Source: a virus. From it: a stretch of 31,348 bases of DNA. A model generated the notes under the pieces. The model did no database searches. It was not told where the DNA came from and saw only the letters and a program-made list of their open reading frames with translations. The DNA lies in the IMG/VR virus record IMGVR_UViG_3300022074_000223, positions 1-31,348 of that record. One strand, 5' to 3'. Shown piece after piece: positions 12,749 to 24,283 of this stretch. Position 1 is the stretch's first letter; every line of letters begins with the position of its first letter. The position numbers and the translations under genes were made by a program.

Positions 12749-13353
12749 TATGTTCCCGTAAATCCTCCTGTAGTTAAATAGTTACCAAGACGTTTAAAAC
12801 CTTCTGATGCATCTATACCACCATCAAAAAACCCTCTACCTGCTTGTTTATTAATAATTCCTTGCCCAATAGTAGCACCAGCTAATTGAAACCCTGCGCT
12901 TTGTCGAGACTCTCGCATCATCTGTCTTCTTTTTGCTTGTTGTAAATTTTCACTTGCTTCTATTCGAGCAACATTAGCTAAACCAGTTGTAGCGTCTGCT
13001 TGTTGACCCCTTGCAGTAGCTAAAACCCCAACTTGTCTGTTTCTTTGTGCTGCTAACCCTTGGCTTCTAGCTTGGGTTTGTTGGCCCACTGCAGCAGAAA
13101 GCAAATCAGCTTGTGCATCAACAGACTTAGCAGCAGCAAGAGATGGCTTAGAAGTTAACGCTTGCATAGTATCAGCTTGCGCTTTACCGGCTGCATAATC
13201 TCCATAATTTTCTTTCATAGAAATATCGCGCATCTCACGCAACAAAGGAGAGTATGTCTGATTAAAGTAATCTTTTTCAGCTTTTGCTACTTTAGCCTGT
13301 ATTTTTTCAGCTTCGGTAGCTTCAAAATCTGACTTTGGTGGTTTACTACTCAT
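12748..13353 (-). CDS. Small internal virion protein, Ala/Gln-rich (second)
   Basis: 201 residues, ATG at 13353 overlapping the preceding gene by 4 nt (ATGA). A charged N-terminus is followed by a long Ala/Gln/Arg helical middle (for example SAAVGQQTQARSQGLAAQRN). The C-terminus is Gly-rich (QLAGATIGQGIINKQAGRGFFDGG). Composition and layout are like those of the next gene, 12212-12748, so the two may be distant paralogues or paired subunits of the internal core. No enzymatic motif is visible. Expressed as part of the tightly coupled virion operon. Confidence 0.5.
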   Translation of the reverse strand: MSSKPPKSDFEATEAEKIQAKVAKAEKDYFNQTYSPLLREMRDISMKENYGDYAAGKAQADTMQALTSKPSLAAAKSVDAQADLLSAAVGQQTQARSQGLAAQRNRQVGVLATARGQQADATTGLANVARIEASENLQQAKRRQMMRESRQSAGFQLAGATIGQGIINKQAGRGFFDGGIDASEGFKRLGNYLTTGGFTGT

Positions 13354-13793
13354 TTAACTTCTTTCCTATATATTCGTGTATCTAATTCCCAGCCTATTGT
13401 TTGTGCGTACGACTCCATTTCTGGTACCCGTGATCTCGCTTCGAGATACTTACAGCCAACCTGCATGGCGAGGTCATTAAACCAATCATTGTGAGCTAAC
13501 CAACTATGCCCACCTTTTTCATAAGTATACGCTATCCATAACAATAATGTCTTGTCTTTTGTAAACTGATCTACTTCTACAGTCAGTATCAAAAAACCTA
13601 CAGGAGAAGTGTATAAGAAAGCTCTTTCGTTAACACACTCACTGTAAACATCTTCAGGAATATAAGTAAGATGCGGGTTCTCTACTAAAATTTCTTCTAT
13701 TCCAGGCTTTATAATGTTCCACGTGGAACGTACATCAGCAGGCTTAGGATCTATATATACATTAGTAGTCGATTTCTTTTCCGTATCTTCCAT
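13350..13793 (-). CDS. Putative GNAT-fold virion-associated protein
   Basis: 147 residues, ATG at 13793; it overlaps the upstream gene by 32 nt and the next by 4 nt. The pattern looks like a small GNAT-type fold: an N-terminal helix pair (WNIIKPGIEEIL), central strands (FLILTVEVDQF and LLLWIAYTYEKGG), a helix (WLAHNDWFNDLAMQVGCKYLEARS) and a final MESYAQTIGWELDTRIYRKEV segment. I see no clear acetyl-CoA pyrophosphate loop, so catalysis is doubtful. Small proteins of this shape occur between the head-tail adaptors and core proteins of podoviruses. The gene contains a perfect 14-bp parS-like palindrome at 13716-13729, coding for RSTWN. Confidence 0.45.
   Translation of the reverse strand: MEDTEKKSTTNVYIDPKPADVRSTWNIIKPGIEEILVENPHLTYIPEDVYSECVNERAFLYTSPVGFLILTVEVDQFTKDKTLLLWIAYTYEKGGHSWLAHNDWFNDLAMQVGCKYLEARSRVPEMESYAQTIGWELDTRIYRKEVK
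13716..13729. promoter_or_regulatory. Perfect parS-like palindrome GTTCCACGTGGAAC
   Basis: A 14-bp perfect palindrome identical to the core of chromosomal parS sites of the GTTCCACGTGGAAC type (with T before it, 15 of 16 positions of the full site). It lies inside the 13350-13793 gene. Its arm, GTGGAAC, is the unit of the repeat array at 23631-24034. Confidence 0.55.
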
Positions 13794-15579: not shown

Positions 15580-16725
15580 TTAGAATGCAACATCTAACGC
15601 AACAACCCCAAAGTCTTCAACCTGACCAGTTACGTCAGAATTGTACTTAGGTTTCTTGAGTCCGAATATTTTCCCAATTGATATACCGTTTTGGTTTCCA
15701 TAGTCAAATGTATCTTCAACTATTTCAGGAATACCAATATCAGCCATTGCTAATGATTGAGCACCACAGAATAAACATCTTGAGTAGTTTACATCTGCAT
15801 TAGCTCCACCTTTATAACCAGCAGCACCAGCATTTGATGATGTACCGCTTGTAGCACCAGACGTGTTAAACACGTGTCTGAACTCATGTACCATGATTCC
15901 ATCAACCATTAAGCTTGATGAACCAGAGAATAAGCTTGACTGAGGACCTCTGATACCAGCTTGTCTTACGTTAGCAAGAAAATCTGAATCAAGTTTTAAG
16001 TCAGCCATTACTTGTGGTGTTACGAAAAGATGGAATGTCTCATCATTACCTTCGCCTCTTAGTCCTCTGATGTACTGATCTTTAGCATAAGCTTTTAGAT
16101 CAACGATAGCGCTATAGCTTAATTTATCAGCTGCAGCAATTGCAGTAACATCACCAGCTACGATACCGTTTGTAGCATCAAATCTTCTATGTCTATTAGA
16201 AGTAGGAGCAGATACATCACTTGAGAACGCAAGATCACCAAGATTCTGTCCAGAATTTTGAACAGGTCTTAATGCACCATTGTTCTTAAGTGTATAACCG
16301 ATACCACTTAGACTTAAGAATGCTAATTGGTCCATTCTGTCAGCCATTGCATAAGCAAGTGCATCTCTAGAATGTTCCCTAAAGTTCACAACTGATTTTT
16401 GATCATTCATTCTACCTGAAAGTCTGTTCGCAAATCTTAGTTGATCAAGTTGTACAACAATGTCGAAAGCTCTTAATGACTCTTCATTACCCTCTAAAGT
16501 ATTGTCTCCAACTATACCATCACCAGTCATATCGGCTAAAAGTGTTAATACAGCTCTAGCTCCTTTTTCTGATTGAGTAAGCTCAGATATAATCTGAACC
16601 ATAGAATTGGATCCGCTACCTGCGAATTGGTTGATGAAGGACATATTTCTAGCGACACGCCAAAAATCACGCGACCAGATCGTTAATTGTTCACTGGTCA
16701 ACGCAGCAAAATTAGTATTTGCCAT
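15580..16725 (-). CDS. Major capsid protein, N4-gp56 family
   Basis: 381 residues from ATG at 16725, chosen because AAGGAG lies 7 nt upstream; an in-frame TTG at 16743 sits before that site and is rejected. The N-terminus (NFAALTSEQLTIWSRDFWRV) and the segments MTGDGIVGDNTLEGNEESLR, RFANRLSGRMNDQKS and FREHSRDALAYAMADRMDQL are hallmarks of the N4-gp56-type major capsid proteins with an HK97 fold. The C-terminal part includes FHLFVTPQVMADLK and VDGIMVHEFRHVF, with family-like strands. The gene follows scaffold and portal genes and is bounded by its own structured leader and a terminator, as expected for a very highly expressed gene. Confidence 0.9.
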   Translation of the reverse strand: MANTNFAALTSEQLTIWSRDFWRVARNMSFINQFAGSGSNSMVQIISELTQSEKGARAVLTLLADMTGDGIVGDNTLEGNEESLRAFDIVVQLDQLRFANRLSGRMNDQKSVVNFREHSRDALAYAMADRMDQLAFLSLSGIGYTLKNNGALRPVQNSGQNLGDLAFSSDVSAPTSNRHRRFDATNGIVAGDVTAIAAADKLSYSAIVDLKAYAKDQYIRGLRGEGNDETFHLFVTPQVMADLKLDSDFLANVRQAGIRGPQSSLFSGSSSLMVDGIMVHEFRHVFNTSGATSGTSSNAGAAGYKGGANADVNYSRCLFCGAQSLAMADIGIPEIVEDTFDYGNQNGISIGKIFGLKKPKYNSDVTGQVEDFGVVALDVAF

Positions 16726-16743
16726 GATAATTCTCCTTATCAA

Positions 16744-22808: not shown

Positions 22809-22957
22809 TATTTTTTCCTCTTTACGCCTCTACCTTTTAAGATATCGGCAAATGTTACTTTTCCATCTCCAGTTAAGTCTGGAAACTTACCTTTCATTTT
22901 TTTAACTTTACGTTTTTTCTTTCGGGCTCTGGTAGCCATCTCTTGTTTACTAGTCAT
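22808..22957 (-). CDS. 49-residue basic protein with EF-hand/dockerin-like calcium loop
   Basis: ATG at 22957 with AAGGAG 7 nt upstream, overlapping the end of terS by 8 nt. After a Lys/Arg-rich N-terminal half comes GKFPDLTGDGKVTFADILKG. Residues D27, T29, D31, K33, T35 and D38 fit positions 1, 3, 5, 7, 9 and 12 of an EF-hand loop, with Asp at position 12 as in dockerin repeats. A single loop in a highly basic peptide is unusual; calcium binding is only inferred. Stop TAA overlaps the next ATG. Confidence 0.75.
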   Translation of the reverse strand: MTSKQEMATRARKKKRKVKKMKGKFPDLTGDGKVTFADILKGRGVKRKK

Positions 22958-23486
22958 TATCTTCTCCTTTTGGTTCTAAGTATTGTGTATCTACTCCAGC
23001 TAACTTTAACAGTTCTGAGTCTGGTAGTCTTTCTAATCTTTCTAACTTATCTACATTTATATTAACTTGAGTTGCTTGCTCGGGTGCAAATAGACCGTGG
23101 AGCTTGCACAACGAATCTACGACATTTTTTTCTTCAGTCGCGGTTGCCGATTTACGGTGGGCTTCAAAATACATTTGGGTTGCAGTTGTACGATCAAACT
23201 TTACTTCTTCTCGCATCTCTTCTCTTAGATAATTAACAGCTTGTTGCACCTTTGGTTTTTTAAAAACCTCGTACACTGAATCTTGGTTCTTGTACCCCGC
23301 TGCACGGCCCGCTGCCGCTTTGCTCATACCACGTAAAAAATACAAAATTACTCTTTCTTCTTGGACCGAAAGCTCGGACAACTTTACGCCAGCGTAAGGA
23401 AAATGCGACTGAAGTTCAGTTCTGTCTTCGTCGGTTACTTCAACTGCTTGAGAAGTTAATAAGCTCATACGCTCAAAATAACACAT
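22950..23486 (-). CDS. terS: Terminase small subunit
   Basis: 178 residues from ATG at 23486; a second ATG at 23468 (MSLLTSQ) is equally possible, and neither has a strong ribosome site. Residues about 53-66 (GMSKAAAGRAAGYK) form a helix-turn-helix of the terminase small subunit type. KPKVQQAVNYLREE and a helical central oligomerisation region follow, then a C-terminal PDSELLKLAGVD segment. It is the first gene of the leftward block, facing the 608-nt control region, and its DNA-binding domain may recognise the packaging start. It is separated from terL by a cassette of basic mini-genes. Confidence 0.8.
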   Translation of the reverse strand: MCYFERMSLLTSQAVEVTDEDRTELQSHFPYAGVKLSELSVQEERVILYFLRGMSKAAAGRAAGYKNQDSVYEVFKKPKVQQAVNYLREEMREEVKFDRTTATQMYFEAHRKSATATEEKNVVDSLCKLHGLFAPEQATQVNINVDKLERLERLPDSELLKLAGVDTQYLEPKGEDND

Positions 23487-23750: not shown

Positions 23751-23848
23751 ATGTTCCGTTGGTTCCACGGCTCTAACCCCATGTGGAACCAGTTCGTGGA
23801 ACCACGACAAAGCTATACAGGATATAGCTTTGCTTGCCAACGGAACAT
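23751..23848. repeat. 12-bp inverted repeat enclosing two hairpins
   Basis: ATGTTCCGTTGG (23751-23762) pairs perfectly with CCAACGGAACAT (23837-23848). Between them lie TTCCACG/CGTGGAA (23763-23769 with 23795-23801) and a perfect 10-bp hairpin, CAAAGCTATA/TATAGCTTTG (23808-23832, loop CAGGA). Together they can fold into a three-way, cloverleaf-like structure in DNA or RNA. Confidence 0.85.
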
Positions 23849-23895
23849 GTTCGGTTCCATGGTTCCGTTTAAATCAAAACAGAGTTTTGTAACGG

Positions 23896-23934
23896 ACCGT
23901 GGACCACGGTTAATGGTTAAAGATTAACTTAACC
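23896..23934. repeat. Two adjacent inverted repeats
   Basis: ACCGTGG-A-CCACGGT (23896-23910) is followed by a nested hairpin. Its outer arms are GGTTAA (23908-23913) and TTAACC (23929-23934). Its inner stem is GTTAA (23916-23920) and TTAAC (23924-23928), with an AGA triloop. Confidence 0.75.
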
Positions 23935-24035
23935 TAAAACTAATGGAACCAGTGGAACCATAACCTAGAACCAGCATTCTTACAGCGTTATTTGTGTTCC
24001 ACGACTCGTGGAACCAAGTGGAACCAGTGGAACCA

Positions 24036-24094: not shown

Positions 24095-24283
24095 ATGAAA
24101 CCAAATGATTATGATTTTTATCGTTCTTACTATATCAAACAGCAAATAGCTCGTATTGATAAAGTATTTGCTAACGCTTCTCAAGAAGAGCTTGAAGATT
24201 CTTGGCAAGGAGACAGCGAGTTATACCAACTCCAAGCAGAACGCGAATATTGGATGAAGAAGCTTGTTAGTCGAGTTACTTGA
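24095..24283 (+). CDS. Early small protein, 62 residues, unknown
   Basis: Start ATG at 24095 is chosen because AAGGAG lies 7 nt upstream; an in-frame earlier ATG (24008) sits inside the repeat array and is rejected. The protein is hydrophilic, rich in Tyr, Gln and Glu (for example YDFYRSYYIKQQIARIDKVF), and helical in character with no membrane segment. I recognise no family. First gene of the rightward block; small host-takeover proteins are common in this position. Confidence 0.7.
   Translation: MKPNDYDFYRSYYIKQQIARIDKVFANASQEELEDSWQGDSELYQLQAEREYWMKKLVSRVT

Follow-up and report, generated by a model that had tools for sequence, protein, structure and literature searches.

Does a palindrome that reads like the ParB-binding site of bacterial chromosomes serve as a DNA element in a phage, or is it merely a by-product of the protein sequence in which it is embedded? 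The question arises from the viral record IMGVR_UViG_3300022074_000223 (31,348 nucleotides, hereafter the window), for which an earlier note, made without database searches, had claimed a host-type parS core inside a virion gene and an array of half-sites 10 kb away, and had proposed that host ParB might be recruited. The first claim held: GTTCCACGTGGAAC is present as an exact and perfect palindrome with the host-type parS core (Table 1), and its 16-mer context, TGTTCCACGTGGAACG at 13715-13730, agrees with the canonical chromosomal parS, TGTTCCACGTGGAACA, at 15 of 16 bases. Expressed as criteria for a chromosomal-type parS, the 14-bp core GTTNCACGTGNAAC is exact in the window and the 16-bp consensus TGTTNCACGTGNAACA is met at 15/16 positions there, and at 16/16 in the array slot of relatives and in the Pseudomonas phage KPP25. 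A second copy of GTTCCACGTGGAAC is absent across the whole 31-kb record, as is any match to the reversed control. At the window GC content of 38.5%, the chance expectation of GTTCCACGTGGAAC anywhere in the window is ~5e-5; this figure is softened by the post-hoc choice of the motif, and it is the comparative evidence that decides. The claim of the array held as well, with ParB as its binder not settled, while the placement in a virion gene held only in part. The palindrome forms the codons for RSTWN in a gene of the structural module, which adjoins two SU10-adaptor-like genes and shares its first 32 nt with the upstream gene; its sole match is phrog_610, of unknown function, and a Pfam search of its product gave no match, such that a role in the virion is probable but not shown.

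Table 1 Positions of the palindrome, the half-site array and neighbouring genes in the window, and of paired parS variants in other viral records
Feature	Position	Strand	Remarks
parS core GTTCCACGTGGAAC	13716..13729	none	exact match, codon conservation, following base
Structural-module gene, 147 aa, phrog_610, function unknown	13350..13793	minus	codons 22-26 hold the site
Major capsid protein (MCP)	15580..16743	minus	52% identical to Pseudomonas phage KPP25; identifies phage group
Terminase small subunit (terS)	22950..23486	minus	adjoins the array
Intergenic array, 8 half-parS heptamers, core motif TGGAACCA	23762..24033	none	order and spacing conserved in relatives
Array heptamers	23762, 23783, 23796, 23952, 23996, 24008, 24018, 24027
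Full-parS slot of the array, decayed in the window (GTTCCGTTTAAATC)	23862..23875		exact parS in relatives G024, G027, G040
Side-by-side parS variants	L104:310-349, L430:3372-3411, L458, L467, L468

The gene was compared across 80 viral relatives, 80 sequences from a second clade (with contigs partly shared) and one contig from a metagenome-assembled genome (MAG), which together gave 101 distinct sequences. All 35 distinct sequences encoding RSTWN use the codons CGT TCC ACG TGG AAC, while nearby synonymous codons vary. A result named beforehand as a refutation, namely that relatives keep RSTWN without the palindrome, thus came out opposite, with the reservation that these 35 sequences are related to each other and are not 35 independent observations. 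Relatives with other residues at the site (RKCWN, RQCWD, RSCWD and others) use a mixture of Arg and Asn codons and have no palindrome, and a single RSMWN sequence is one base away from it. On the pruned gene tree, the site's four degenerate codons have undergone no synonymous change, whereas the mean for 62 other conserved degenerate codons is 3.08, with only 11 of them invariant; the probability that four random codons are all invariant is P=6e-4 by resampling (4e-6 under a Poisson model). The constraint extends to the codon 3' of the site, which is ATT, ACT or AAA (encoding I, T or K) and thus begins with A every time. This A is the canonical parS base at that position, where GTT, AAG or GTA prevails in the other relatives. 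The synonymous test and the base after the site together argue that the site is not a by-product of the protein sequence. Presence of the palindrome switches seven times on the gene tree, and it must therefore have been repeatedly gained, lost or recombined. Codons 1-11 of the gene are also low in synonymous change, because they overlap the upstream gene. A second stretch of low synonymous variation, comprising codons 78-82 (TKDKT) and 88-90 (AYT), has no known reason.

The array upstream of terS consists of eight GTTCCAC/GTGGAAC heptamers in about 270 bp, and the window as a whole has 14 such heptamers where ~2.5 are expected. Across 45 distinct arrays, conservation is 96.5% in the half-site columns and 65.3% elsewhere. 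At a fixed slot in this array, an exact full parS is found in the three relatives listed in Table 1, all of which are without the gene palindrome, and in the array loci L234, L238, L244, L251, L284, L292 and L294, among others; in other arrays, the slot has one or two mismatches. The full site in the slot bears canonical parS flanks (T...A), unlike the ...AACCA of the array itself. Exactly one GTTNCACGTGNAAC was present in 25 of 50 records and two copies in none (reversed control, 0). Among 12 records read in detail, four have the gene site without a canonical array site, the opposite holds for three, and the other five are without either exact site; several relatives are without any near-exact parS, from which it follows that the site is inessential to the phage family. 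Strict complementarity of the two sites was accordingly rejected as a law: they are never found together, yet several relatives have neither. The parS has thus moved between gene and array slot within this phage family, and the window palindrome is a chromosomal-type parS that is selected as DNA, in a phage without a detected ParB.

The last point rests on a search of 16 large relatives, in which no ParB_N (PF02195) match exceeded the family cut-off (one weak match reached 13.8 bits), and of 44 other parS-bearing viral records, in which there was likewise none above cut-off; a ParB of the phage's own was rejected on these grounds. The window is a fragment, and one 56-kb relative was scanned with Pfam and PHROGs. 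Its replication genes are of lytic type (DNA polymerase A, helicase, exonuclease), and no integrase or partition family was among the first 25 families matched. As a separate observation, L204:12903-14654 (G017 52903-54654) encodes a phage protein combining CHASE2 and adenylate/guanylate cyclase, with a FecR-domain gene nearby.

For comparison with the parS of hosts we turned to cultured phages. Judged by its major capsid protein, the window phage is nearest, among cultured phages, to the P. aeruginosa Kochitakasuviruses KPP25 and phiR18 (52%); judged by terL, it is nearest to the Aeromonas phage phiA008 (52%). KPP25, phiR18, CRPAP1904 and YMC17/07/R4900a have one exact TGTTCCACGTGGAACA each, in the stretch that separates the MCP gene from the gene upstream of it, next to a terminator-like hairpin; the KPP25 copy (L392:16588-16603) is the exact P. 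aeruginosa parS2/3 16-mer and directly adjoins the hairpin. Since identity among these four phages is 95-100% at the site, they are regarded as one observation. ChIP-seq has established the P. aeruginosa parS as TGTTCCACGTGGAACM, in four genomic copies, with two-mismatch versions unbound in vivo (PMC5098823), and the KPP25-type 16-mer is identical to the sequence that ParB binds in vivo in P. aeruginosa (PMC5098823). The half sites GTTCCAC and GTTTCAC are also bound by this ParB (PMC10419367). None of 13 other P. aeruginosa phages has a parS, which makes its presence among phages of this host lineage-specific; the Aeromonas phage phiA008 and the Acidovorax phage AP1 have none either. On the bacterial side, the 16-mer parS occurs in 49/143 gammaproteobacterial species (control, 0), usually in 1-2 copies, with paired copies ~620 bp apart in many species. 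The match to host parS is thus exact for KPP25 and P. aeruginosa, where the phage parS is that of the host. The marine host of the window phage is unknown: the sole link to a genome bin, one close contig in a Neomarinimicrobiota MAG, is doubtful and may be misbinned, and the parS of that MAG is GTTTCACGTGAAAC.

The site is not confined to these phages. Within IMG/VR, TGTTCCACGTGGAACA was found in at least 120 stretches and the variant TGTTTCACGTGAAACA also in at least 120, while two control palindromes, matched to TGTTCCACGTGGAACA in composition, sharing its CACGTG centre and equally perfect, were found in 2 stretches each, which puts the canonical 16-mer at least 60-fold in excess of matched controls in viral contigs (L004-L121 subset, L420-L480). 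The 120 listed TGTTCCACGTGGAACA loci fall into 70 similarity components, and one of these loci clearly belongs, by marker proteins, to the window's family. The largest component includes phages with a terL 55-64% identical to that of the Pelagibacter phages HTVC023P/HTVC027P, and in phages of this kind TGTTCCACGTGGAACA and TGTTTCACGTGAAACA stand side by side immediately upstream of terL, with their starts ~24 bp apart. Some IMG/VR contigs may be contaminated with host DNA, but this does not account for those sites that lie inside conserved phage genes or arrays. Two cultured phages have single sites: HTVC027P (L623) has one GTTTCACGTGAAAC at 16413-16426, and Roseobacter phage CRP-810 (L624) one GTTCCACGTGGAAC at 24251-24264.

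We consider it likely that the palindrome works as a host-type parS and brings host ParB to the genome of the phage, a reading for which there are no binding data and which is not tied to one particular benefit. It is the best explanation because RSTWN always comes with the palindrome, because KPP25 has the exact parS of its host, and because the core is common in gammaproteobacteria. The recruitment proposed in the earlier note is thus supported, while its three alternatives of positioning, decoy and a plasmid-like state are not resolved. In the mechanism that we envisage, host ParB would bind the phage parS after genome entry, load as CTP clamps and spread across the flanking phage DNA; the host ParA/SMC machinery would then treat the phage genome like an origin region, and genome copies would be positioned and spread on the nucleoid. 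Binding by the ParB of the marine host, clamp loading, spreading and benefit are all inferred, in the absence of binding data. The single copy per genome speaks for an action in cis, upon the genome of the phage itself. Given binding, positioning or segregation is as likely as not to be the benefit, local transcriptional timing or silencing is somewhat unlikely, and a decoy or other use is improbable.

Timing can be seen either as a rival to plain ParB recruitment or as a sub-mechanism of it, and is possible but not likely. ParB nucleated at parS would keep nearby promoters, structural or early, silent for as long as it is not outnumbered by genome copies, with host ParB serving as the copy-number-sensing repressor of the phage. 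In its favour, promoters close to parS are silenced by the ParB of P. aeruginosa (PMC5521831). As to position, the array slot adjoins terS, the gene site is part of the structural operon, the KPP25 site neighbours the MCP gene, and in a second phage group the sites stand immediately upstream of terL. However, location is weak evidence, since structural genes take up roughly half of a genome like this; moreover, no promoter has been mapped, and the window site is mid-operon. A decoy, in which replicated phage genomes titrate chromosomal ParB and block segregation and division, is unlikely. The many genome copies would provide many parS sites per cell late in infection, and the array adds half-sites of the type bound by P. 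aeruginosa ParB (PMC10419367), but one site per genome is a poor design for titration. Even less plausible is that a replication initiator or regulator encoded by the phage binds both palindrome and array, with the match to parS being coincidental. The array does resemble iterons, with direct repeats that recur every 9-10 bp and share the core TGGAACCA, and in some relatives the full site stands among them; against this, the full site has parS flanks rather than those of the array, KPP25 has the site without the array, and the 120 listed stretches of the first variant fall into 70 similarity groups, with the second known variant as frequent. Chance retention of a 14-mer through the protein sequence RSTWN has in its favour only that few codons are involved and is all but excluded by the identical synonymous choices in 35/35 distinct sequences, the alternation of gene and array states, and the excess over matched palindromes, so that we rejected a chance or protein-driven origin. 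A simple RNA or DNA hairpin function was rejected because equally perfect palindromic controls are so rare.

Host ParB recruitment, the reading that we prefer, can be set against known systems. The site has the same 14-bp core as the chromosomal parS of P. aeruginosa, with 15/16 agreement in the window and 16/16 in the array slots and KPP25 phages, but the phage copy is single, lies inside a protein-coding gene and belongs to a genome without a detected ParB gene. As in the ParABS systems of phages and plasmids (P1, N15, mycobacteriophage parABS), a centromere site is carried on a phage replicon; those systems, however, encode ParA/ParB themselves and use a private site, whereas here no such genes were found and the site is of chromosomal type. 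Test plasmids to which chromosomal parAB and parS lend stability show that a parS of chromosomal type can work on a different replicon, provided that Par proteins are present (reviewed in PMC7022226); these plasmids are engineered, while the phages have the site only. We found no description of ParB-less phages with a host parS in the literature searched (preprints and most subscription journals were outside its scope). If host ParB does load on phage genomes, the host chromosome machine would be used in cis for a cost of 16 bp, providing a mechanism for intracellular positioning of phage genomes, host-dependent timing or carrier states, and parS would be a sequence mark that may help to predict hosts. 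One could go further and read a host parS without ParB as a widespread means for lytic phages to enlist host chromosome segregation. We lean, with little margin, towards this bolder reading, which rests on at least 70 similarity groups, on sites that move within genomes and on the two variants standing side by side in some phages. KPP25-type phages make the question directly testable in P. aeruginosa.

As for the array, its heptamer GTTCCAC is that of the half-sites bound by P. aeruginosa ParB (PMC10419367), but unlike those sites the phage array is ordered, with conserved spacing and an extended motif. Since the conserved motif, TGGAACCA, is only partly parS-like, a phage protein may bind it; without binding data, both host ParB and a phage protein are possible. 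Its iteron-like arrangement could also point to an origin of phage replication or to the binding site of a phage regulator.
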